This document shows, one piece after another, positions 1,470-25,147 of a stretch of DNA of 37,004 bases; position 1 is the first letter of the stretch, and each line of letters opens with the position of its first letter. A program made the position numbers and the translations under genes. The notes below the pieces were generated by a model. It did not search any database, was not told the DNA's origin, and saw nothing but the letters and a program-made list of their open reading frames with translations. The DNA comes from a virus. The DNA is taken from positions 1 through 37,004 of the IMG/VR virus record IMGVR_UViG_3300047319_000913, one strand, 5' to 3'.

Positions 1470-4400
1470 ATGCCGGTCAACTTCGCGCTGACGCCTGAGC
1501 AAATGAATGGTGCTCAGGCGGATATTTGGGCACAGAAGGCCAATGCCGCCGTGGCCGACGCCTGGCAGGCGCAACAGGTGGCCAAGCTGCAGCCCATACC
1601 CGTGCCGCCATCGCCAGCCCTGGACACGCCCACCCCCAGTGACAGCCTCACCCAACCGATGCAGGCGGCACCGCAACCGGCCCCTTTAGTCGGCACCGTT
1701 CCAGAGGGCACGCCCAGTACTGACGCGTCCCAGCCTCCGCCTGTAGCGACCTCAGCCCCACCACCCGTCACCGCGCCGCTGGTCTTTCCGGGCGCGCCGC
1801 CACCGACGCAGCAGCCGATCGCGCCAGCGCCGCCGTCGACGCCCGACGAGACGATCAGCAACCCCTTCGGGGAAGCGTTCCGCCAGCTCCAGGGCATCAC
1901 CCAGCCGCAAGCGTCACCCCCACCGTCACCCCCACCGCCACCCACGCCCACCTGGTCGGCGCCCACGGGTAGCGACACCCTCACCAATCCCATCCAGACC
2001 CAACAGAATCAGGCCACTGGCGGCGATCTGGAAAGCATCGTGCGCGACAGTGCCGCTCGCTACGGCATTGATCCCGACACGGCCGTACGCGTGGCCATGT
2101 CTGAGGGCGGCCTGTCCGAAGGCGCGCGACCGGGCGACTCCGGCTCGAGCTTCGGACCGTTCCAGTTGCACTACGGCGACGTCGCTCCGGGCGGCAATGC
2201 CGTCAGCGGCCTGGGTGACGCGTTCACCGCGGCCACGGGCCTCGACGCCCGCGATCCCAACAACGCGGCTGCCGCCATCGACTACGCCCTCAGCAACGTG
2301 GCGAAATCCGGCTGGGGGCCATTCCACGGCGCGGCGCGCGTGGGCATCGGCCCTATGGATGGGATCGGCGGGCGACCGTCGAACCTGGCGCCCACGCCGT
2401 CCGACGCGTTGACCAACCCACTGGGCAGCGGGCCGGCTGCGAGAACCTCGCAGTTCGGCCTGGGGTTGAGCGCGCAGGCCGCGTACGCCGCGTGTGGCCC
2501 GGCCGCCGCGATCGCGTTCGCCAACACCTACGGCCGCTATCCCACGCCCAACGAAGCGATGCAGCTCGCCAGCAGCGTGGGCTGGTCCGCCGATTCGGGC
2601 ATGGCCGGCGTGTCGTCCGAACAGCAACTGCTCGGCAAGATGGGCATTCCCACCAAGCTCGAGTCGACGGTGGATTGGAACCACGTGGCCGCCGACGCGG
2701 CCAACGGCAACCCAGTGATTCTCGACACGCCAGGCCACTACTTCTACGTCAGCGGTGTCCGCCAGGGCCAGAACGGCCTCGAGTTCAACGTCGGCACCAG
2801 TGGCACCGATTTGCGCCAGGGCAGCCAGTGGATGAGCGCCGCCCAGATCGGTGGCGTGGGCATGGGCTCTGTGCGCGCGGCACTGTACGCCGACAACCCC
2901 ACCAGTGCCACGCCCAGCGTGGCCGCGCCAGCCCAGCCGTCCACACCGGGCCCTGCCCAGCAGGCATCCCAGTGGATGACCAAGGCCAACCTCGTGGCCG
3001 GCGTCACCCCCCAGACCGACGAGACCATCAGTAATCCGTTCGGCGAGGCGCTCCGCCAGGCGGGTGACATCGCGGGCGGCATTGGCCAGACCGTGGGGAA
3101 CGCGGCCAGTAGCGTCGGCTCAGCCGTCCACACTGCGCTGGGTCCGCAGCCACTGGCCGCCGCTCAGCAGCCTACACCGTCCGACACGTTGACGAATCCC
3201 ACCCTCAGCACGGTGCCGCCGGCTGATCGCAGCACGGTCCCGTCGATGCCTGGCGCCACGGAGGGACCAATCCCTCCAGGCATTCCCATCGTGAGCGGCG
3301 CCGGCAACCTGGCGGCCAACGCGATCAACACGGTCGGCGATGCGGTCAAGTCGAACATTCAGAACGACCCCAGCCTGCCCGCGGTGGCCTTGCGGGCGCT
3401 GGCGGGTGGCGAAAGCTCCACCGCGATTCAGCGCGACCTGATGGCCAAATATGGCACCTGGATTCCTGACGATCGGTTCACTCCCGAGGACCGCGAGCGA
3501 GCCGGCAACCTGGTCATGCTCATCGGCGGCATGGAACTGGGTGGTGGCAAAGAAGCCGTGGACGCGCTGGGCAACAAGATCGCCCCGCTCGAGGAGCAGG
3601 CCGCGCAGATGGCTGGCAGAACCCTCGAGAGCGGCGCCGGTCTGCTAGGGCTCGGCCGACCGGCGGCGTCTGCTCCGCTCTCGGAGCCCGCGCAGTATCT
3701 CCTGAATGAGGCAGGTGGGGATCTCACGACCGCGATCGACAACGCGGCCCAGCGACTCCAAACGACCGATCCTGGTGAGACCGCCCTCACCGCGCGGATC
3801 AGCCGCGCGCATGACGAACTGGTGCAGGCTCGGGACGCGGCGGGTGCGACCGGCGCCGTCCCAGCACCCCAGGCAGCCCCCGCACCCCCAGTTGAAGCCC
3901 AGGCCGCACCCCCCACGTCAGCGACCAATGCGCTCGACCACCTGGTGCCGCCAGGTGCGAAGGCATCGCCCGTCGAGCAAGTCCTCGACCGCGGGCTGAT
4001 CGTTCCACGTGAGACTGGCCCGGTCCAGATCCTGGGACCACGGGGTGAAGTGCTCAGCACGGTGGCCCGACAGGGTCAGGACGTGGGCATCGTGCGGTCA
4101 GCCGGTGTGGGCGCCGAGGTCGCTGCACCATCCGCTGCCACCGTGGCGCGTATGCCCAACATCGCCAAGCTGGCGCCAGAGATGCCCGAGGTGGCAGCGT
4201 CGCTGCAGCGCGTCGCCGAAGAGAACCCGCACCTCATGGACACTGCCACCCAGGGGCGGATCACCCATCAGCAACTCGTCGAAGACCTGGCCCCCAAACT
4301 GGGCATGACTGCCGCCGAGTTTGAGAAATCCCCGATCGGCAAGGCGTACAACCCCCAGGAGTTGCTGACGCTGCGTGCGGCGGTCGTCCAGAAGCAGGTG

Positions 4401-7282: not shown

Positions 7283-7432
7283 GGTGAGCGTGGTTATACG
7301 CCGCGCTCCGAAAAAGGGAGGTGTGTTTCGTTCTCGCGTCGGGTTACGAAACGGTTAAAGGTGCGTGGTTTGCAAGAATCTTGCAGTCCGTGTTGGCACT
7401 GGCGCACATGGGGCCACAGAAACTCAACCCGC
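7283..7432. promoter_or_regulatory. palindrome-rich intergenic region
   Basis: No gene is supported here. Two inverted repeats stand out. GTTTCGT at 7325-7331 pairs with ACGAAAC at 7346-7352 across 14 bases. TGCAAGA at 7371-7377 pairs with TCTTGCA at 7379-7385 around a single central base. On the minus strand a TATAAC at about 7297-7292, 9 bases before the membrane-protein start, is a possible -10 box, but no good -35 is seen. Binding of a phage or host regulator is inferred. Confidence 0.45.
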
Positions 7433-7476
7433 CGTCAACCCGGCGTTGACGCCACTGCGCAGTGGCGCGATACACT
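7433..7476 (+). promoter_or_regulatory. promoter with palindromic operator in a 19-bp spacer, ahead of the ParB-like gene
   Basis: TTGACG (7446-7451) and TACACT (7471-7476) form a sigma70-like pair with an over-long 19-bp spacer. Almost the whole spacer is a perfect 18-bp palindrome, CGCCACTGC/GCAGTGGCG (7450-7467). A second inverted repeat, CGTCAAC-N5-GTTGACG (7433-7451), covers the -35. A 19-20 bp spacer with a dyad between the two boxes is the known layout of MerR-family-controlled promoters, but no MerR gene is in the window. A 17-bp alternative uses GATACA at 7469-7474. Confidence 0.55.
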
Positions 7477-7491
7477 CTTCGTTGAGTGGCA

Positions 7492-7524
7492 GGAGAGCCG
7501 CGAGGCTTCATCTCGCGGCCCTCC
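7492..7524 (+). promoter_or_regulatory. leader hairpin of the ParB-like operon
   Basis: An 8-bp perfect stem (GCCGCGAG 7497-7504 with CTCGCGGC 7512-7519, 7-base loop) extends through one mismatch to GGAG/CTCC, giving a 13-position stem. It begins 15 bases after the TACACT -10 box, so it would form at the 5' end of the transcript. There is no T-run after it, so it is not a standard terminator. RNA stability or antitermination roles are possible. Confidence 0.55.
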
Positions 7525-7561
7525 CTAGGCCACCCGATCTGTAAAGGAGATCAGGTAACCC

Positions 7562-8533
7562 GTGGCAGAACCTACCACGCAACCGTTGTTCCTTGGCGAC
7601 TCGCGGTACGAGGCCAAGTTCAAGGAGTGGAACCTCGAGCATCGGCTCGAGCTCGCGTTCCCCATCGACCAGCTCCGCGTCGCCGACTGGGCGCAGGTCC
7701 GCAGTTCCAATCACGTAGCGCCGCAAGATGAAGTCGAGGAGTATCGCCAGCAGATGGCTGCGGGCGCCGCATTCCCGCCTGTCATTCTGATGGCGCCAGA
7801 CACCTTGATCGACGGCAATACGCGACTTGGCGCGGCCAAGAAGCTGCACAAGAAAACCATCGCTGCGTATCTGATCGATTTCCCGAGCGTGCCGATGGCC
7901 AAGTCACTGGCGGCGGCCATCAACAACATGGGCGGCAAGCGGCTCTCGACAGAAGAGGCTGTCGATGCGGCGAAGTTGCTCATGGACATGCATTTCGCAG
8001 ACGAGGCGATCGCGCGAGAGATCGGCCGATCACCCGAGCAGGTACGGCGTATTCGCAACCAACTCGAGTTCGCCGACCGCACCAGAAAACTGCACCTGGA
8101 GGACGAGCGCGACCGGATCAGCATGGACAATCGTGCTCGCCTGAACTCGGTCAAGCACGACCCCGTCTTCGGGGAATTCGTCGAGTTCGTCTCACAGGCG
8201 GTCCCGGCCAAGAAGACCATCACCGACCTGCTCAAACAGGTCAACGCGGCACCATCAGACGCTGATGCGATCTCGGTGATCGAGCAGGCCAAGCGTGACT
8301 ACCGCCCGGCTGGGCCACCGCCGCGCGACCGCGAAGTCTCCATCTCCGGCACCGTGCGCCAGGTCGGGATGCACATCAGCGCACTCGTGAAGTTGAGTGC
8401 TGCACCGGAGGCGTTATTCGACCCGCGTGAGGACAAGCGCGAGGAGCGCATCCAGCAGTGGCAGGTGGTCGCCCAATTGAGCACCCGCATGCTCGAGCTC
8501 TACACGCCCGTAAGAGAACTCGTCACCGCGTGA
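7562..8533 (+). CDS. ParB-like nuclease-domain / DNA-binding protein
   Basis: The 323-residue product has a ParB N-terminal domain at about residues 25-120 (FPIDQLRVADW, then a region of variable loops and the DGNTRLGAA box at about 80-88). A helix-turn-helix middle region follows (STEEAVDAAKLLMDMHF, then AIAREIGRSPEQVRRIRN, about 120-165), typical of ParB/Spo0J and of phage ParB-like regulators. The C-terminal half is not recognised. The GTG start is preceded by AAGGAGA at a usable distance. No ParA is encoded anywhere in the window, so a full partition system is not supported; a regulatory or nuclease role, or use of a host ParA, remains open. It heads a two-gene cassette with its own promoter, inserted between virion genes. 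Confidence 0.85.
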   Translation: MAEPTTQPLFLGDSRYEAKFKEWNLEHRLELAFPIDQLRVADWAQVRSSNHVAPQDEVEEYRQQMAAGAAFPPVILMAPDTLIDGNTRLGAAKKLHKKTIAAYLIDFPSVPMAKSLAAAINNMGGKRLSTEEAVDAAKLLMDMHFADEAIAREIGRSPEQVRRIRNQLEFADRTRKLHLEDERDRISMDNRARLNSVKHDPVFGEFVEFVSQAVPAKKTITDLLKQVNAAPSDADAISVIEQAKRDYRPAGPPPRDREVSISGTVRQVGMHISALVKLSAAPEALFDPREDKREERIQQWQVVAQLSTRMLELYTPVRELVTA

Positions 8534-9129
8534 AGCGCGAAAGCGTCCGTGGCACCGGTCGAGACCAGACCGGTGCCACGAGCGTCACCATGCAGATCTG
8601 GTATGAGCTCGATCAGTCCGGTCAGGCTGGTCTGACGTTCGAGGAAGTGCTCGAAAAGGTGAGTCCGCGGGTTCCCGCGGGCTACGCCTGGCGACGCTTT
8701 GTCCGTGATACAGAGAACCACCGGCGGTACGACCGTCGTCGAACCTCATCGGAAAGTACAGCGCGTTCCCCACTTTCCGATGAGGTTCCCGACACTGCCC
8801 ACAATCGCCTGGCGGCTGTGCGCTATGTAGTTCGCAACACGGCTAACAGCATGGTCGCGAGTGGCACAGCCCTGAAGCGTCCGGATGGCCGCTTCGTCGC
8901 ACTGCGCAAACCCAGGTCCGTATTTACCGATGAGCAGCACGATTTCGATGGCTCGGTCACCCACAAGTCCGTGGCGCTGATGGAGCTCCTGCGCCTCGCC
9001 CGCCCGTTCGTTGAGCGCATCGAGGCTGAGTGGCTACCGAGTAAGGCCCCCGGCCACATGCCGCATATTCCCGTCACGTTGTACGCGGCTCTGACACGCC
9101 TGGTCGATGCTCACACGCAGCCGCAATAA
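8530..9129 (+). CDS. hypothetical protein, partner of the ParB-like gene
   Basis: The GTG at 8530 overlaps the ParB-like stop in a GTGA junction, the coupling used throughout this genome, giving 199 residues. ATG 8590 (MQIWYELDQSG) is a credible alternative, because the first 20 residues look unstructured and are encoded by a perfect hairpin. The remainder looks folded and soluble: FEEVLEKVSPRVPAGYAWRRFVRD near the N-terminus and a helical LMELLRLARPFVERIEAEW near the C-terminus. No family is recognised. A 17-bp perfect inverted repeat (8741-8788) lies inside the coding sequence. A terminator follows about 70 bases downstream, so the two-gene unit ends here. Co-function with the ParB-like protein is inferred from the overlap. 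Confidence 0.75.
   Translation: MKRESVRGTGRDQTGATSVTMQIWYELDQSGQAGLTFEEVLEKVSPRVPAGYAWRRFVRDTENHRRYDRRRTSSESTARSPLSDEVPDTAHNRLAAVRYVVRNTANSMVASGTALKRPDGRFVALRKPRSVFTDEQHDFDGSVTHKSVALMELLRLARPFVERIEAEWLPSKAPGHMPHIPVTLYAALTRLVDAHTQPQ
8548..8580 (+). repeat. perfect 13-bp hairpin at the ParB-like/partner junction
   Basis: CGTGGCACCGGTC (8548-8560) is exactly complementary to 8568-8580 across a 7-base loop. It lies between the ParB-like stop and the alternative ATG 8590. No T-run follows. It could modulate translation of the second gene or protect RNA ends. Confidence 0.7.
8741..8788. repeat. perfect 17-bp inverted repeat inside a coding sequence
   Basis: The arm GAACCTCATCGGAAAGT at 8741-8757 is exactly complementary to 8772-8788, with a 14-base loop. 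It lies entirely within the ParB-partner gene. A perfect 17-bp stem is much longer than expected by chance or codon bias and is not explained by the encoded protein. Confidence 0.8.
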
Positions 9130-9159
9130 GCGTGGAGTACAAAACACCCCAGAACGCGG

Positions 9160-9233
9160 TAGACTCTGACCACCCCAGCCGCTAACGCAAGTTAGCCAGC
9201 GAGGCCCCGACCGTCAGGTCTGGGCCTTTTTTT
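9160..9233 (+). terminator. leader hairpin plus rho-independent terminator before the scaffold gene
   Basis: A 6-bp hairpin with a GNRA-type loop (GCTAAC-GCAA-GTTAGC, 9181-9196) is followed five bases later by a strong terminator: AGGCCCCGACC (9202-9212) pairs with 9217-9227 with one mismatch and is followed by seven T residues (9227-9233). It ends the ParB cassette and any readthrough from upstream. A TAGACT resembling a -10 box lies at 9160-9165, 15 bases before the first hairpin, but no matching -35 is visible. How the capsid genes downstream are then expressed (own promoter or antitermination) is open. Confidence 0.8.
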
Positions 9234-19862: not shown

Positions 19863-20067
19863 GATGTACGTCTTGACCGGGAAGGGAAACGGGTGTCCAC
19901 TGATTGAACGCGCCCGCGTGACGCGCGCGACGTCTCCCCGCACGAGACGGAAGGGGGGATGACGACCAGACAGATCTCGCAGTTCGTGACTCTTTGCACG
20001 ACCCCACGAGCTGCTCGACGACCATCTGTGTCGCCATCCCTCCCATCTCTACAGGCTGCCCCGTCAC
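19852..20067 (-). CDS. doubtful small gene after the HNH gene
   Basis: 71 residues from a GTG that overlaps the HNH-gene stop (GTGA). The N-terminal 25 residues (EMGGMATQMVVEQLVGSCKE) look acceptable; after that the reading becomes Ser/Arg-rich. In the -1 frame the sequence CEICLVVIPPSVSCGE appears, which looks more like a Cys-containing domain. The segment may be a decayed or frame-disrupted gene. The stop falls inside the repeated leader. Confidence 0.3.
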   Translation of the reverse strand: MTGQPVEMGGMATQMVVEQLVGSCKESRTARSVWSSSPLPSRAGRRRARHAGAFNQWTPVSLPGQDVHRHR

Positions 20068-20699
20068 AGCAGTCCAGGTTGGCGTGGCTGGCGACGGGGT
20101 CGTGGTGTTCTAGCCAGTGACCCGCCGCGTTTGATGGCGGCAATGGTCCTGCCCAGTTGGAGCATCACTTCAGGCGTCAGCGTGTTTCCTTTGACGGTGT
20201 TGCACCAGGAGCAGCACGGCACGACGTTCCCCATCACGTAGCCGATGGTCGGATCGAGCCGGTCGAGTGCTGAGCCAGTCTTGTTCAGCGGGCTCAGGCA
20301 ATAGTGGCAAGAGGCGCCCGTACGCAGGGTGCTGTACTCATCGAGAGTGAGGCGCCAATCGATTCTGCGGGCCTTTGCCTGGCTGCAGGCGGCCGCGAAT
20401 AGGCTTTGCATTTTGCGAGCATGGCGATCGGCACCAGATTCGATACTGGTCGCTGTGCGGGCTGTTGGCCCGCCGACAATGGCGGGGACAGGTGGACGAG
20501 GTGCCGGATACGCTGCCAGCCGACGCGCCTGCTCCTCTTTGCTGAGAGTGTTCCACTCACGAAAACGTCTGCGATACTCGGCCACGACCTGAATCTGATC
20601 GTCTCGGGTAATTGAATGCACGAGCGCCAGGTGGGCTTTGAGATCGAAGAACTTTTCTCTGCATTCGGCGATAAACACATCAATCTCGGTTGGTGTCAT
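20064..20699 (-). CDS. HNH-type endonuclease
   Basis: 211 residues from ATG 20699; an upstream start at 20780 would run into the integrase gene and is rejected. The N-terminal half is helical and basic (CREKFFDLKAHLALVHSITR, FREWNTLSKEEQARRL). The C-terminal part holds the zinc-bound nuclease core: CHYCLSP, then a NKTGSALDRLDPTIGYVMGN segment, then CCSWCNTVKGN. These are two CxxC pairs around a D-R-L-D-containing hairpin, as in HNH/McrA-like endonucleases. Codon use is less G/C-biased than in the structural genes, which suggests acquisition. It lies next to the integrase. Homing or DNA-processing activity is likely; the target is unknown. Confidence 0.75.
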   Translation of the reverse strand: MTPTEIDVFIAECREKFFDLKAHLALVHSITRDDQIQVVAEYRRRFREWNTLSKEEQARRLAAYPAPRPPVPAIVGGPTARTATSIESGADRHARKMQSLFAAACSQAKARRIDWRLTLDEYSTLRTGASCHYCLSPLNKTGSALDRLDPTIGYVMGNVVPCCSWCNTVKGNTLTPEVMLQLGRTIAAIKRGGSLARTPRPRRQPRQPGLL

Positions 20700-20706
20700 G
20701 TCAGGT

Positions 20707-21633
20707 TTACAGTCCCCACCGTGCGCTGAGTGATGCCACCTCAGCGATTTCGCCGACGGTCCGATCTGACAGCGACACATAGTCGCTGAGCACTTCCCGC
20801 GACAACTGGCCGAGCCGTGACCGAAGCTGAATTTCGGCGCCCGGCCGCTGGGCTAAAAATTCGGAGGCGGCCGAGTGGCGCGTGCGGTGAGGATGGCTGT
20901 TGGGGACGCGGCCGGCCTGACCGAGCTCCGAGAAGATCTCGCGTACTCGGCGGGTCGACAGCGCCAGGCGTTCGCGTGTGGTGAACAGCGCGGTCACGCC
21001 CGCGCGGGCCTCGCGCACCTTGAGCCAGTTTCTCAAGGCCGAGAGTGCCGGCCCGCCGTCGCGGCGCGAGGGAACGCGGAAGGTGACCCGCCGCGGGCTG
21101 CCATTTTTGGTGCGCCTGAAAAGAATCGAGCCCTCGACCAGGTCGACGTCAGTGACCGCGGCGTTGCACAGCTCGCCGACACGACAGCCGGTATCGAGCA
21201 GCAGCAGCAGCAGGGCGCGATCGCGGATCGGGTTGGGACCGGCCGAGGCGGATTGCACCAGGCGGCGCGCCTCGTCTTCGGTGAAGGGCTTGCGGTGGAT
21301 TTTCTGGACACGGGGTACCTTGAGCCGACCGAGCGGGTCGAAGGCGAAGACGTCGTTGTCCCAGCACCAGCGTGCCCAGGTCTTGAGCGTCATCACGCCC
21401 TGTTTTTCCGTCACCAGGCCGCCACGGCGGCCGGTGGACTTGCCACGCAGCCATGATTGCCACTCGCGCACGAATTGTGGGTTGAGCGCGTCAAGCGACG
21501 GCGAGACCTCGTGCTCGGCCAGGAAGGCCAGATACGAATCCTGATACGTACGGTACAGCCGCAACGTGGCAGGCGACCGATTGAGTCGCTCGAGTGCGTC
21601 GCGGTGGAAGTCGGCAGCTTCGGCCAGATTCAT
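20707..21633 (-). CDS. int: tyrosine-recombinase integrase
   Basis: 308 residues from ATG 21633, chosen over ATG 21672 because GGGGG precedes it and 21672 lies inside the predicted promoter. The N-terminal SAM-like core-binding domain covers about 1-105 (RLYRTYQDSYLAFLAEHEV). The catalytic domain has R151 in DTGCRVGEL, K176 in RRTKNGSP, H249-x-x-R252 in HPHRTRH, and the nucleophile Y285 in LSDYV. The position usually held by His or Trp in LGH is Gln (LGQ, Q276), a departure from the consensus. It catalyses integration and excision at att sites. No attP core can be defined from the sequence alone. It is transcribed with the HNH gene on the minus strand. Confidence 0.9.
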   Translation of the reverse strand: MNLAEAADFHRDALERLNRSPATLRLYRTYQDSYLAFLAEHEVSPSLDALNPQFVREWQSWLRGKSTGRRGGLVTEKQGVMTLKTWARWCWDNDVFAFDPLGRLKVPRVQKIHRKPFTEDEARRLVQSASAGPNPIRDRALLLLLLDTGCRVGELCNAAVTDVDLVEGSILFRRTKNGSPRRVTFRVPSRRDGGPALSALRNWLKVREARAGVTALFTTRERLALSTRRVREIFSELGQAGRVPNSHPHRTRHSAASEFLAQRPGAEIQLRSRLGQLSREVLSDYVSLSDRTVGEIAEVASLSARWGL

Positions 21634-21658
21634 AGGAAAACCCCCGTTGAATCTGCCT

Positions 21659-21687
21659 AAAGTAGAACTCATGTTCTATACAGTCAA
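21659..21687 (-). promoter_or_regulatory. integrase promoter
   Basis: On the minus strand TTGACT (21687-21682) and TACTTT (21664-21659) are separated by exactly 17 bases, ending about 25 bases before the chosen integrase start. The spacer contains the dyad AGAAC-N4-GTTCT (21664-21677), a possible operator. Confidence 0.55.
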
Positions 21688-21755
21688 CTAAGGGCGGCGG
21701 TTGGGCGACAACTGGGAGTGCTAACGGCGTCCGAGTCCGGCATGGGTGCAGGTTG

Positions 21756-22292
21756 TTAGGCGACACGGCGTCGGTTGGTGATGCCGGGGTAGCCGTCTAA
21801 CACATCGCTAGCGCGATGTTGTGCTGGCCTTAACGGACCCTTGTCGTCTTTTCGTCGGTTGCGGCCACGTTCAGCGCGACCCGCAACCGACGCATTAACG
21901 GCGGCATCACCTGGCGCATTAACGGCGGTCCTGACCTGACGGATCAGGTCGACCGCGGATTCGCCCTGCGCTTTTAGCACGGCCAACAGCAACTCTTCGT
22001 CTTCGGGACTAACGTCATTGAGCCACTGCTCGACCTGGGCGTGGACGGCCTGGCGCCGTGCATCGGGTCGTGGGACGGGCTCACCCAGCAGGTAGCCGCA
22101 CATCCTGGCCAGTTCTTCGTAGGGGACGCCGAGCGCCGGCGCGAGCCTTCTCAGGTTGGTGTCGGTCGGGCGGCCGATCCCATCCCGCCACCGACCCAGC
22201 ACGTGCGAGGTAATGCCGCTGACTTCGGCCAGTCGCGCCAGGTCACCTCGTTCCCTGAGTCGTGACTGCAGGAGCGCGATGAATTCGTCCAC
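21756..22292 (-). CDS. CI-like phage repressor, XRE helix-turn-helix
   Basis: 178 residues. An XRE-family helix-turn-helix occupies about 4-62 (LRERGDLARLAEVSGITSHV, then LGRWRDGIGRPTDTNLRRLA), followed by ALGVPYEELARMCGY. Residues about 75-115 are helical (QAVHAQVEQWLNDVSPEDEE) and may dimerise. The tail is short and basic, with no LexA-type peptidase domain, so induction would not use RecA-driven self-cleavage. The GTG start at 22292 lies exactly six bases after a TAACAT -10 box, so its mRNA is predicted to be leaderless. It diverges from the Cro-like gene. Two 15-base direct repeats (around 21891 and 21918) encode a repeated AVNA motif. Confidence 0.85.
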   Translation of the reverse strand: MDEFIALLQSRLRERGDLARLAEVSGITSHVLGRWRDGIGRPTDTNLRRLAPALGVPYEELARMCGYLLGEPVPRPDARRQAVHAQVEQWLNDVSPEDEELLLAVLKAQGESAVDLIRQVRTAVNAPGDAAVNASVAGRAERGRNRRKDDKGPLRPAQHRASDVLDGYPGITNRRRVA

Positions 22293-22370
22293 GGACGGAT
22301 GTTAATTCATACGCGTCTGCTCGTCAACGCAATTGTTGACGGTCCAGCAGGGATGGACTATTATCCGAGC
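22293..22370. promoter_or_regulatory. divergent leaderless promoters and operator of the lysogeny switch
   Basis: Rightward: TTGACG (22336-22341), 17 bases, TATTAT (22359-22364), six bases, ATG 22371. Leftward: TTGACG (22327-22322), 17 bases, TAACAT (22304-22299), six bases, GTG 22292. With a start about seven bases after each -10, both transcripts begin at the start codon. The two -35 boxes lie back to back and form CGTCAAC-N6-GTTGACG (22322-22341), so one bound dimer could block both promoters. A further GTTGAC half-site lies at 22374 inside the Cro-like gene. Confidence 0.85.
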
Positions 22371-22595
22371 ATGGTTGACAATAGGGGAATGCACCCCATC
22401 AAGGTGGAGTTGGCTCGACGCTGGCCACCGATGAGTCAGGCTCAACTCGCCCGTCGGCTTGACCTGAACGCGTCGGTCCTGAGTCGCTATCTCAACGGGA
22501 TCGCGACCCCGCCGGAGAGTTTCTACGGAGCGGTCGGAGCCGTCCTCGGGTGCGACCCATCGGAACTCAAGCCATCGGAGCCCGCGGCCGCCTGA
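22371..22595 (+). CDS. Cro/CI-type helix-turn-helix regulator
   Basis: 74 residues with a compact XRE helix-turn-helix: VELARRWPPMSQAQLARRLD, then LNASVLSRYLNGIATPP, then FYGAVGAVLGCDPSEL. It is small enough to be a bare DNA-binding domain like Cro. ATG 22371 is chosen because it lies exactly at the predicted transcription start of the rightward promoter; ATG 22389 is an internal alternative preceded by AGGGG. It opens the early operon and should oppose the divergent repressor at the shared operator. Confidence 0.8.
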   Translation: MVDNRGMHPIKVELARRWPPMSQAQLARRLDLNASVLSRYLNGIATPPESFYGAVGAVLGCDPSELKPSEPAAA

Positions 22596-22609
22596 ACTAC
22601 TGACCGCGA

Positions 22610-22674
22610 CCTGGCCCTACCAGGGAGATCGCGACCGAGACAAAAAGAAAGGACCCCGCCCTACGGAGTCCTTT
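22610..22674 (+). terminator. hairpins after the Cro-like gene, possible attenuator or bidirectional terminator
   Basis: A small stem (CCTGG/CCAGG, 22610-22624) is followed by an 11-bp stem with one mismatch (AAAGGACCCCG 22648-22658 with 22664-22674). On the plus strand only TTTC follows. On the minus strand the stem is followed by a T-rich TTTCTTTTTG, so it is a better terminator for leftward transcription. It may act as an early attenuator. Confidence 0.55.
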
Positions 22675-22699
22675 CAACAACTACGAAAGAGGAAGACCT

Positions 22700-23011
22700 T
22701 TGCACGACCCACTCGATTCCGCAGTTGCAGGATCATCATACCGAAACGGTGCCGGCGCGCAACCGATCCGGTCAACCAGTGACGTAACGATCTCGTCAGG
22801 GTTGGTGACCGATCGCCCCTGGTCGATGCAGGCCGCGTCGGACCGCGACAAGGCCATCGCCCTGATCCAGGACGCACGCCAGCGCATCTGCGACGTGCGC
22901 CTGCTGCTGAACCACTACGACACGTCGCTGTCGTTCAAGCTGGATTCGTTCCAGCGCGAGCTCAACGACAGGCTCGGTGGACTGCTTGTCGCCAGGGAAG
23001 ACGCGCTGTGA
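22700..23011 (+). CDS. early hypothetical protein
   Basis: 103 residues from TTG 22700, chosen because GAGGAAG lies five bases before it. The first 45 residues are Ser/Gly-rich and disordered. The rest is helical (RDKAIALIQDARQRICDVRL, then FKLDSFQRELNDRLGGLL), probably a coiled-coil or helical bundle. The stop overlaps the next GTG start. First gene after the attenuator-like hairpin. No family recognised. Confidence 0.65.
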   Translation: MHDPLDSAVAGSSYRNGAGAQPIRSTSDVTISSGLVTDRPWSMQAASDRDKAIALIQDARQRICDVRLLLNHYDTSLSFKLDSFQRELNDRLGGLLVAREDAL

Positions 23012-23265
23012 CCGTGACGGCCGAGGTCACGACCGTGCTGAAGCGGCTGTACGAAACGTCGGTCAAAGTCTGGGACGATTCGTCCGACTCATCGTCAGGC
23101 CACGTGAGCGACCCGTCGGTATGGGCTGAGTGGATCGACGCCATCGAGGCCACGGGCAAGTTTCTCAAGGACACGCCAATTCCGTACGGGGGGCCGGTCA
23201 AGCGGGTGCCCGGTTCAGTCGTGGGCGATATCCAGATCGCGCCTGATTTCGGGGTGGGCGCGTGA
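23008..23265 (+). CDS. early hypothetical protein
   Basis: 85 residues, GTG overlapping the previous stop. A helical N-terminus (TVTAEVTTVLKRLYETSVKV) is followed by a Ser/Asp-rich loop (DDSSDSSSG), a second helix (VWAEWIDAIEATGKFLKD), and a short beta-rich end (VPGSVVGDIQIAPDF). No membrane segment and no recognised family. Coding is supported by codon bias and by overlaps on both sides. Confidence 0.65.
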   Translation: MTVTAEVTTVLKRLYETSVKVWDDSSDSSSGHVSDPSVWAEWIDAIEATGKFLKDTPIPYGGPVKRVPGSVVGDIQIAPDFGVGA

Positions 23266-23393
23266 ACTGGGACGAGGTGGTGTACCGCGTCACCCTGCTG
23301 GCGGTGATCCTGGGATTGGTCTGGCTGGTGTTCGCGCCCATGCCCAACGGTGAGCCGCTCCTGCGGCTTGTCCACCAGGCGTACATCGCGTGA
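23262..23393 (+). CDS. small single-span membrane protein
   Basis: 43 residues, GTG start in a GTGA overlap and stop overlapping the next GTG. Residues about 8-27 (YRVTLLAVILGLVWLVFAPM) form one transmembrane helix with short polar ends. It may anchor or modify a host membrane target early in infection. No function is recognised. Confidence 0.6.
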   Translation: MNWDEVVYRVTLLAVILGLVWLVFAPMPNGEPLLRLVHQAYIA

Positions 23394-23956
23394 CCGTCGC
23401 CGAAGCGTCCCGCCAGTTCATGGCCACGGCCCAGCGGCTGCCCACCCTCTTTGACCTTGAGGACACGGCGTACCAGTTGCTGGCGTTGCTCGAGGCCACC
23501 GACGATCCCGTCGAGATCGCCGACGTCGAGGCGGTCGCCGAGATCAAGGCGCAGCTCGCCCTGGTCGACCAGTTGATGCTGACCAAGCAAGAAAGCTACG
23601 TCAGCGTCATCAGGTCGCTGGAGGCGATGGCTGACGCCCGCAAAGCTGAGGCAGACCGACTGCGGGACCGCGCGAAGACGGCCGAGCGCCACGCTGACTG
23701 GCTGCGAGCCAGGTTATTGACGCATCTAAAAATCACCGGGCAGGAACGCATCGAGACAGCCAGATTCTCAATCTCGGTGCGGCTGAATCCTCCGAGTTGT
23801 GTTGTGGTCGACGCTGCCGTCGTGCCGTCGGAATTCCAGAAGACCAAGATTGAAATTTCGGTGGACCGTCGCGGGATTCTTGAACACTACAAAACCAGCG
23901 GAGAGATCCCGCCTGGGGTGTCCATTGAACGGAGCGAAAGGCTCCAGATTTCTTAG
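23390..23956 (+). CDS. Siphovirus Gp157-like protein
   Basis: 188 residues. The N-terminal 130 residues are a long helical region (IKAQLALVDQLMLTKQESYV, then LEAMADARKAEADRLRDRAK, then AERHADWLRARLL). The C-terminal part shows the signature of the Gp157 family: RIETARFSISVRLNPPS, then VPSEFQKTKIEISVDRR, then IPPGVSIERSERLQI. Such proteins are common in phage early operons beside annealing proteins and were linked to phage resistance in Streptococcus thermophilus phage; the biochemical role is not established. It lies in a chain of GTGA overlaps. Confidence in the family is good, in function low. Confidence 0.8.
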   Translation: MTVAEASRQFMATAQRLPTLFDLEDTAYQLLALLEATDDPVEIADVEAVAEIKAQLALVDQLMLTKQESYVSVIRSLEAMADARKAEADRLRDRAKTAERHADWLRARLLTHLKITGQERIETARFSISVRLNPPSCVVVDAAVVPSEFQKTKIEISVDRRGILEHYKTSGEIPPGVSIERSERLQIS

Positions 23957-23958
23957 CC

Positions 23959-24414
23959 ATGACGATCATCGTCAGTACGAATCCGTGCCCACGCTGCGGT
24001 GGCCTTGAACGCTACGTAAGCAAGACTCTCCGCACAGATTGCGTCGCATGTCGCCGTGCCACTTGGCGCCGATACACCGAAACGCACGGTGCATGGAGGT
24101 TGTCTCACCCCGAAGAGCAACGGGAATTTCAACGCCAATGGATAGCTTCGCGCCCGGACTACTACCAACTGTGGAGCCGCCGAGCTCCTGAGATGAGGCG
24201 GGCTCACAGTGCCGTAGAGCGAGCACTGAAAAAGGGCATTCTCGTTCGGGCGTCAGCCTGTGACGAGTGTCATGTAACTGGTAAGCCTGAAGCAGCTCAC
24301 TACGATTATGACCGTCCGCTGGACGTCAGATGGTTGTGTCGAACCTGCCATCGGGCGTGGGACCGGGCTGCCCCTAAGACAGCGTACTCACGGGCAAAGT
24401 TGAGCATCGCGTGA
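23959..24414 (+). CDS. HNH-like zinc-binding endonuclease
   Basis: 151 residues, ATG two bases after the previous stop. It has two metal-binding parts: an N-terminal zinc ribbon (CPRCGG near residue 9 and CVAC near 28) and a C-terminal core with CDECHVTGKPEAAHYDYDRP, then LDVRWLCRTCHRAWD. The second block is the typical phage HNH pattern (C-x2-C, a histidine in AHYDY, then C-x2-CH). Third positions are less G/C-rich than in neighbours, suggesting a recent insertion such as a free-standing homing endonuclease. Its stop overlaps the RusA-like gene. Confidence 0.75.
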   Translation: MTIIVSTNPCPRCGGLERYVSKTLRTDCVACRRATWRRYTETHGAWRLSHPEEQREFQRQWIASRPDYYQLWSRRAPEMRRAHSAVERALKKGILVRASACDECHVTGKPEAAHYDYDRPLDVRWLCRTCHRAWDRAAPKTAYSRAKLSIA

Positions 24415-24764
24415 CCCTGCTGGCCGCGTTCAGTATTCCTGGCCCGCCGGTCGCGAAGGGCCGCGCCAGGGTCGTACGCGGCCATGCGTTCACTCCGAAA
24501 AAGACGCGCGAGGCCGAGGAACGCATCGGCCAGCACTTCTTTGTGAAGTACCCGCACATGCAGCCGGCGACGTGCCGGCTCAGAGTAGTGGCGCGCTTTT
24601 ACATCAAGGGCACCCGTGGCGACGGCGACAACTTTCTGAAATGTCTGCTCGACGCGGGCAATAAGCGGATCTGGGCAGACGACAAGCTGGTGGATGAGAT
24701 CGCCGTCACCGTGATCCGCTCGAGTGCTGAGCCGCGGACGTCTGTCGAGGTGTGGCAGCTGTGA
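24411..24764 (+). CDS. RusA-family Holliday junction resolvase
   Basis: 117 residues, close to the family length. Family features are the N-terminal IPGPPVAKGRARVVRGHAFT, the acidic DGDNFLKCLLDAGN centre (D71, D73) and WADDKLVDEI (D90/D91), which hold the metal-binding acids and basic DNA-contact residues. RusA cuts four-way junctions as a dimer. Here it would process recombination or replication intermediates, alongside the Rad52-like protein in the same operon. It starts with a GTG in a four-base overlap with the HNH gene. Confidence 0.9.
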   Translation: MTLLAAFSIPGPPVAKGRARVVRGHAFTPKKTREAEERIGQHFFVKYPHMQPATCRLRVVARFYIKGTRGDGDNFLKCLLDAGNKRIWADDKLVDEIAVTVIRSSAEPRTSVEVWQL

Positions 24765-25147
24765 GAGTGGCGGCGCTGGTGTCGGCGGCAGTCCTGGTGC
24801 TGACCACCCACACGGCATCCGCGCGTGACGTCGGCGATGACCCCGTACCGGTGGTAGTGGACGACACCCAGGACCAGGTGGTCGAGGCCGTCGTCGAGCA
24901 GCCCGTGCTCAATCCGCGGGTGGAATGCATCATCGCCCGCGAGTCGGGCGGGCGTGACGTGATGAACCGCCAGGGCAGCGGGGCCACGGGTCCAGGGCAA
25001 TACATGCCAGGCACATGGCGGGCGCACACGCTGGAGATGGGGGAACCGTGGCTGAACATCCACAGCCTGGCTGACGTGCGGCGTGTGGCCGCCTACGACC
25101 TGTCTATGGGCAGACGGCGGCAGTGGACCGTCGGAGGCTGTACGTGA
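24761..25147 (+). CDS. secreted lytic transglycosylase / lysozyme-like protein
   Basis: 128 residues from GTG 24761, which overlaps the RusA-like stop. A signal peptide is clear (MRVAALVSAAVLVLTTHTAS, cleavage likely near ASA-RD at 19-22). After an acidic Val-rich linker the catalytic domain begins at about 52: VECIIARESGGRDVMNRQGS, with E61 as the acid, then GATGPGQYMPGTW, matching the transglycosylase/Rpf-like fold. C56 and C127 could form a disulfide outside the membrane. The domain is short. It lies in the early operon, not with the late lysis candidates, which is unusual. A membrane gene follows directly. Confidence 0.8.
   Translation: MRVAALVSAAVLVLTTHTASARDVGDDPVPVVVDDTQDQVVEAVVEQPVLNPRVECIIARESGGRDVMNRQGSGATGPGQYMPGTWRAHTLEMGEPWLNIHSLADVRRVAAYDLSMGRRRQWTVGGCT

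Follow-up and report, generated by a model that had tools for sequence, protein, structure and literature searches.

We observed that the 78-bp region between a repressor gene and a divergent Cro-like gene contains two back-to-back promoters, the −35 boxes of which lie within a single perfect inverted repeat. The analysis covered a whole 37,004-bp virus record of IMG/VR (hereafter, the window). The explanation that we favour, and hold to be fairly probable as a whole, is that the window is the complete genome of a temperate phage and that the 78-bp region is its immunity control region. A CI-type repressor gene (leftward, from Prep) and a Cro-like early lytic gene (rightward, from Pcro) would share one dyad operator there and would be expressed from leaderless mRNAs.

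Genomic context of the switch region

The terminal 36 bases are the same at both ends of the record, as a complete circular assembly would be expected to show. Its genes include those for a terminase, a major head protein and a DnaC-like helicase loader. A tyrosine integrase, the repressor and the Cro-like gene are clustered at 20.7–22.6 kb, and the nearness of an integrase to the switch is a mark of the temperate life style. The integrase gene (20707–21633, minus strand; Pfam Phage_integrase, 2e-24) is led by a Shine-Dalgarno (SD) sequence, GGGGG, and lies downstream of the repressor gene on the same strand.

The repressor gene (21756–22292, minus strand; 178 codons, starting with GTG at 22290–22292) matched a PHROG transcriptional repressor (5e-7) and, weakly, Pfam HTH_3 (6e-4). 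The first ∼65 residues of its product form a lambda-repressor-like HTH, and a variable tail follows. The Cro-like HTH gene (22371–22595, plus strand; ATG, 74 aa; Pfam HTH_31, 3e-8) has homologues in the same position in two related viral contigs, L062 and L066, and its AlphaFold2 model is a helical HTH with a mean pLDDT of 73. The arrangement is thus that of a CI/Cro-type switch, in which divergent repressor and Cro-like HTH genes have their promoters in a shared intergenic region. Directly downstream of cro, there is a terminator-like hairpin (22647–22675), active on the minus strand, which would halt leftward transcription short of the switch. An Rfam scan of the window detected no RNA family.

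No DNA similar to the window was present in the phage DNA collection, distant mode included. Two viral contigs, G001 (L003) and G002 (L004), have the same backbone as the window (terminase 97% identical). Their immunity modules differ from that of the window, and their integrases are 34–35% identical to its integrase. When genome contigs were searched for a host, the terminase alignment gave no match and the integrase alignment gave only distant integrases (27–39%) from mixed phyla.

Two back-to-back promoters share one dyad

The preliminary description of this DNA stated that TTGACG-N17-TANNAT is placed six bases ahead of both start codons and that the −35 boxes form CGTCAAC-N6-GTTGACG. Both statements proved exact to the base, and the promoters are the sole such sites in the window. 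The start codons (repressor GTG, 22292, minus strand; Cro-like ATG, 22371, plus strand) are 78 bp apart. On the repressor strand, Prep reads TTGACG-AGCAGACGCGTATGAAT(17)-TAACAT-CCGTCC(6)-GTG, with the −35 box at 22322–22327 and the −10 box at 22299–22304. On the cro strand, Pcro reads TTGACG-GTCCAGCAGGGATGGAC(17)-TATTAT-CCGAGC(6)-ATG, with these boxes at 22336–22341 and 22359–22364, respectively. The consensus matches of the two promoters are 10/12 and 9/12. In pattern scans of the 37,004 bp, TTGACN-N16–19-TANNAT occurred at just these two sites (0.10 expected; two sites in 0 of 100 shuffles), and the looser TTGNNN-N16–18-TANNNT-N5–8-RTG followed by at least 30 codons was also unique to these places. 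When the 78 bp were dinucleotide-shuffled 200,000 times, a correctly placed strict promoter appeared on one strand in 19 cases, on the opposite strand in 18 and in no case on the two together.

The 20-bp dyad, CGTCAACGCAATTGTTGACG (22322–22341), has perfect 7-bp arms (CGTCAAC-GCAATT-GTTGACG) and contains both −35 boxes. It is unique in the window at this spacing with 0 mismatches, and no further copy above chance was found at the same spacing with up to 2 mismatches. An isolated half-site, GTTGACA, in codons 2–4 of the Cro-like gene (22374–22380, plus strand) is possibly a weak second contact. Alone, the dyad is the weaker evidence, because identical back-to-back −35 boxes always form an inverted repeat and because a perfect 7-bp-arm dyad (gap 4–10) was present in 2.2% of 20,000 shuffles of the 78-mer. 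It therefore needs other support. Both points would suit an explanation in which the dyad is a by-product of two similar back-to-back sigma-70 −35 boxes and the operators are elsewhere, for instance at CGTCCACGGACG over the repressor start (22286–22297) or at GTCC-N9-GGAC in the Pcro spacer. Such an explanation would also agree with mycobacteriophage BPs, whose OR operator is located in the −10/−35 interval and not over −35 (PMC4557955). We consider it unlikely in view of the switch modules of related phages.

The −35 boxes change together among relatives

Relatives were found via terminase and integrase searches of viral contigs, whereas searches of viral contigs for relatives of the repressor, with a single sequence or a three-row alignment, gave none that was confirmed. 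Five distinct modules, including that of the window, consist of a repressor gene and a divergent HTH gene with back-to-back promoters, and within each module both −35 hexamers are identical. The boxes read CGTCAA-N8-TTGACG in the window (G000), TGTCAA-N6-TTGACA in L062, TGTCAA-N8-TTGACA in L066, GCGCAA-N10-TTGCGC in G001 and GTGCAA-N10-TTGCAC in G002. Between modules, the box sequence thus shifts on both sides together, from TTGACG to TTGACA, TTGCGC or TTGCAC; the permutation p for within-module identity is 2/120, with five modules only. The repressors of these modules are homologous, yet they are only 22–34% identical to that of the window.

For the three TTGAC-type modules (window, L062 and L066), promoter consensus alone could give identical boxes, and shared non-consensus boxes are confined to G001 and G002. 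In these two, however, both boxes share one departure from TTGACA. As TTGCGC and TTGCAC leave the consensus alike on both sides, the dyad arms are probably selected as protein-binding half-sites. Also against a mere by-product, GTGTCA-N8-TGACAC occurs exactly twice in the 54.8 kb of L062, even at 2 mismatches: once over the −35 boxes and once over the repressor start, away from any −35. This pair of 20-bp sites is the strongest evidence for such dyads as putative operators. The role of operator that the preliminary description gave to the dyad is hence likely, given five modules with −35 boxes alike within and different between phages.

Which protein binds the dyad is a separate matter. Lambda-type Cro and CI use the same operators, and here also the Cro-like protein might be the main binder, or both regulators might bind with differing outcomes. 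Cro homologues are encoded beside the TTGAC-type dyads of the window, L062 and L066, while G001 and G002, with their TTGCGC and TTGCAC boxes, carry a MerR/excisionase-like HTH_17 protein in place of the Cro homologue. Repressor homologues, on the other hand, are present in 5/5 modules, so that the association of the dyad with the repressor is at least equally close. We regard a leading or shared role of the Cro-like protein as an appreciable but minor possibility, and favour the repressor as the protein that would occupy the dyad.

Both start codons are predicted to be leaderless

In both genes, six bases part the −10 box from the start codon, so that +1 is expected at the first base of the codon, which is a purine in repressor and cro alike. 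The −10 centre would lie ∼9 bp before this +1, inside the range of 7–12 bp reported for mycobacteria (PMC3898074). In mycobacteria, leaderless translation needs a 5′ ATG or GTG, which also suffices for it (PMC4633059). For the phage, the promoter preferences of the host and its tolerance of leaderless mRNA were assumed.

The start codons (ATG or GTG) of both genes are without a usable SD. SD pairing at the repressor start is −0.8 kcal/mol, nearly the weakest among the called genes. At any start within the first 45 codons of this gene, the best pairing is no stronger than −1.7 kcal/mol, against −5 to −13 at the SD-like starts of most genes. An in-frame TAA (22302–22304) sits in the −10 box of Prep, and the GTG at 22292 is therefore the earliest possible start. 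In the AlphaFold2 model of the repressor, residues 1–70 have mean pLDDT values of 79–92 (ten-residue blocks), and helix 1 comprises residues 2–15 with a pLDDT near 90. From the absent SD, the in-frame TAA and a helix that begins at residue 2, a leaderless repressor mRNA is the best reading, and a likely one. Upstream of cro, the sole SD-like pairing (−6.6) falls in the promoter spacer, about 13–21 nt upstream, and so would be absent from the predicted mRNA. A clear SD (−8.7) precedes the lytic-operon gene that comes next, at 22700. For cro too, a leaderless mRNA is the best reading, and a likely one.

The mRNAs could instead be leadered, with transcription beginning elsewhere or with proteins beginning at different codons, such as 22299 or 22353 upstream in the case of cro. 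The cro frame does stay open upstream as far as 22299, and equivalents in relatives are sometimes SD-led, as are cro of L066 and the repressor of G001; in the G001-like L067, a frameshift separates the 5′ GTG from the SD-led GTG. Neither start in the window has a usable SD, however, no competing promoter was found within 20000–25000, and an in-frame stop precedes the repressor GTG. We judge leadered mRNAs to be quite improbable. The earlier proposal that the mRNAs start at the initiation codon and bypass SD recognition is thus supported as a prediction by the absent SD, the in-frame stop and a start that fits the protein fold.

Among the relatives, the pattern was mixed. In L062, cro is leaderless by prediction (TTGACA-17-TATCTT-6-ATG), and the repressor has a weak −10 (GAGAGT) and a leader of perhaps 4–5 nt. 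The repressor leader in L066 would be at most ∼3 nt (TACCGT-9-GTG), and its cro is SD-led behind GGAAGGA. The G001 repressor is SD-led (AGGAAGGA). The lytic-side gene of G001 is probably SD-led too: in L067, a close relative, a one-base shift lies between the 5′ GTG and the GTG that follows the SD, so that the two are in different frames. For this reason, a leaderless start of this gene in G001 and L064 (TTGCGC-17-TATCAT-7-GTG), which had been considered, was dropped. In L067 itself (4187–4250), the promoter start coincides with a 5′ GTG whose frame is not that of the SD-led HTH gene, and this GTG possibly opens a leaderless upstream short ORF. Both genes of G002 have a −10 seven bases ahead of an in-frame start, with a repressor spacer of 19.

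Viral contigs were also scanned for the exact double geometry, at N8 spacing only. The scan returned 24 stretches, mostly AT-rich with one side non-coding; where each ORF reached at least 40 aa, two HTH genes were in no case present. As there was no second two-HTH case, this geometry is not a hallmark that is widespread in the family. An unrelated viral contig, L091 (13849–13932), has a relaxed double-leaderless N8 geometry, with an HTH gene opposite a gene for a secreted-like protein. Double-leaderless symmetry, by these sequences, is not common to the relatives and is not supported as the essence of the device. Leaderless expression rather seems to arise often as a by-product where promoters are compact, and is most marked in the window.

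The dyad alone gives the choice no direction

In the mechanism that we envisage, the 5′ end of either mRNA coincides with the start codon or lies no more than about 2 nt from it, and translation is leaderless. A repressor dimer on the 20-bp dyad would block RNA polymerase at both −35 boxes, which would silence the lytic promoter and at the same time autorepress the repressor's own promoter. Back-to-back polymerases would also exclude one another. From its position, the candidate dyad would be expected to bring repression to the two promoters alike: with a single site across both −35 boxes, they should be shut off together, and hence the dyad alone gives the choice no direction. The region by itself therefore falls short of the compact two-way switch that the preliminary description had seen in it. 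Direction must come from a further asymmetry, such as Cro affinity, promoter strength (the unequal consensus matches), the GTTGACA half-site, or an integration-linked stability of the repressor, as in BPs-type systems.

Repressor stability is hinted at by the order of repressor and integrase on one strand, by (C)GTTAA repeats and by the PLAA terminus of the L062 repressor, in analogy with BPs-type systems (PMC4557955, PMC9934374). A divergent tail is encoded by the 3′ ends of the repressor genes (window, 21756–21960; L062, 4690–4870), in which (C)GTTAA/GTTAG motifs recur. It is possible that these repeats are integrase arm sites and that the tail end is a degradation tag of integration-dependent immunity. 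The repressor C-termini are RRRVA in the window, PLAA in L062 and VLAGA in L066; a canonical ssrA-like look is confined to L062 and is lacking in RRRVA. For the window, an attP/attB pair could not be demonstrated, and attB was not found.

Just upstream of the integrase, there is a LexA-box-like palindrome, AGAAC-N4-GTTCT (21664–21677). Its position is conserved in related loci (L062, 4948–4961; L066, 4962–4975; L047, 985–998; L048, 4196–4209), although the middle bases vary and the integrases are down to 33% identical. The core, GAAC-N4-GTTC, resembles the LexA box that is typical of many Gram-positive species. The integrase or excision may be SOS-controlled; a literature search on LexA control of such integrases found nothing.

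A candidate distal site

A second CGTCAAC/GTTGACG pair, with N5 spacing, lies at 7433–7451, upstream of a ParB-like gene; two such pairs are present in the window and 0 in 100 shuffles. This candidate site adjoins a perfect 16-bp palindrome, GCCACTGCGCAGTGGC. The segment of ∼1.8 kb around it (∼7391–9171) contains a second ORF besides the ParB-like gene (phrog_1033, 4e-10), and it is missing, as an alignment gap, from the two closest relatives, G001 and G002. The segment may be an accessory insertion that the repressor controls.

A bolder proposal, to which we attach a low probability, is that of a minimal immunity region. One symmetric operator would shut both leaderless promoters, and the decision would be made by repressor stabilisation on integration, with attP in the repressor 3′ end, and not by opposing promoter control. 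The second site would put the accessory ParB-like gene under the same repressor.

Comparison with known switches

A switch with both genes leaderless is already known, and novelty of the window in this respect is not supported. In the telomere phage PY54, the divergent cI and cro were each found leaderless by RACE, with a single mRNA species each (PMC4488713); in the window, they are leaderless by prediction. Unlike in the window, PY54 Cro binds a 16-bp palindrome, OR3, beside cI and as far as 40 bp away from the promoter of cro, without a dyad across both −35 boxes, and the host belongs to Enterobacterales (PMC4488713). Mycobacteriophages PL1 and PR2 of cluster O likewise have a divergent gene pair that is leaderless by prediction only (PMC4351075).

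Lambda cro is SD-led, each lambda region has three operators, and CI activates PRM. The window differs in its predicted leaderless cro and single dyad, and resembles lambda in the predicted leaderless repressor mRNA, lambda cI mRNA from PRM being leaderless according to a citation in PMC4488713. With gp33/gp34 of BPs, the window shares the divergent repressor and Cro-like genes, an integrase beside the repressor on the same strand, and a short HTH repressor (PMC4557955); several operators are also spread across the BPs genome. In BPs, however, OR (in PR) and a separate ORep are 113 bp apart, whereas a single compact dyad spans the two −35 boxes of the window.

The window is therefore a tidy, largely ordinary version of a switch layout known from other phages, its underlying principle being already known from PY54 and lambda. 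It is nevertheless a very compact and fully annotated example, in which the operator and both −35 elements would be the same bases, and it is this coincidence, along with the joint change of the boxes among relatives, that merits a look by specialists. The five short regions form a natural series, by which repressor specificity becomes testable by comparison. Leaderless expression of both regulators, if true, would tie the switch to the capacity of the host for leaderless translation, for example under stress.
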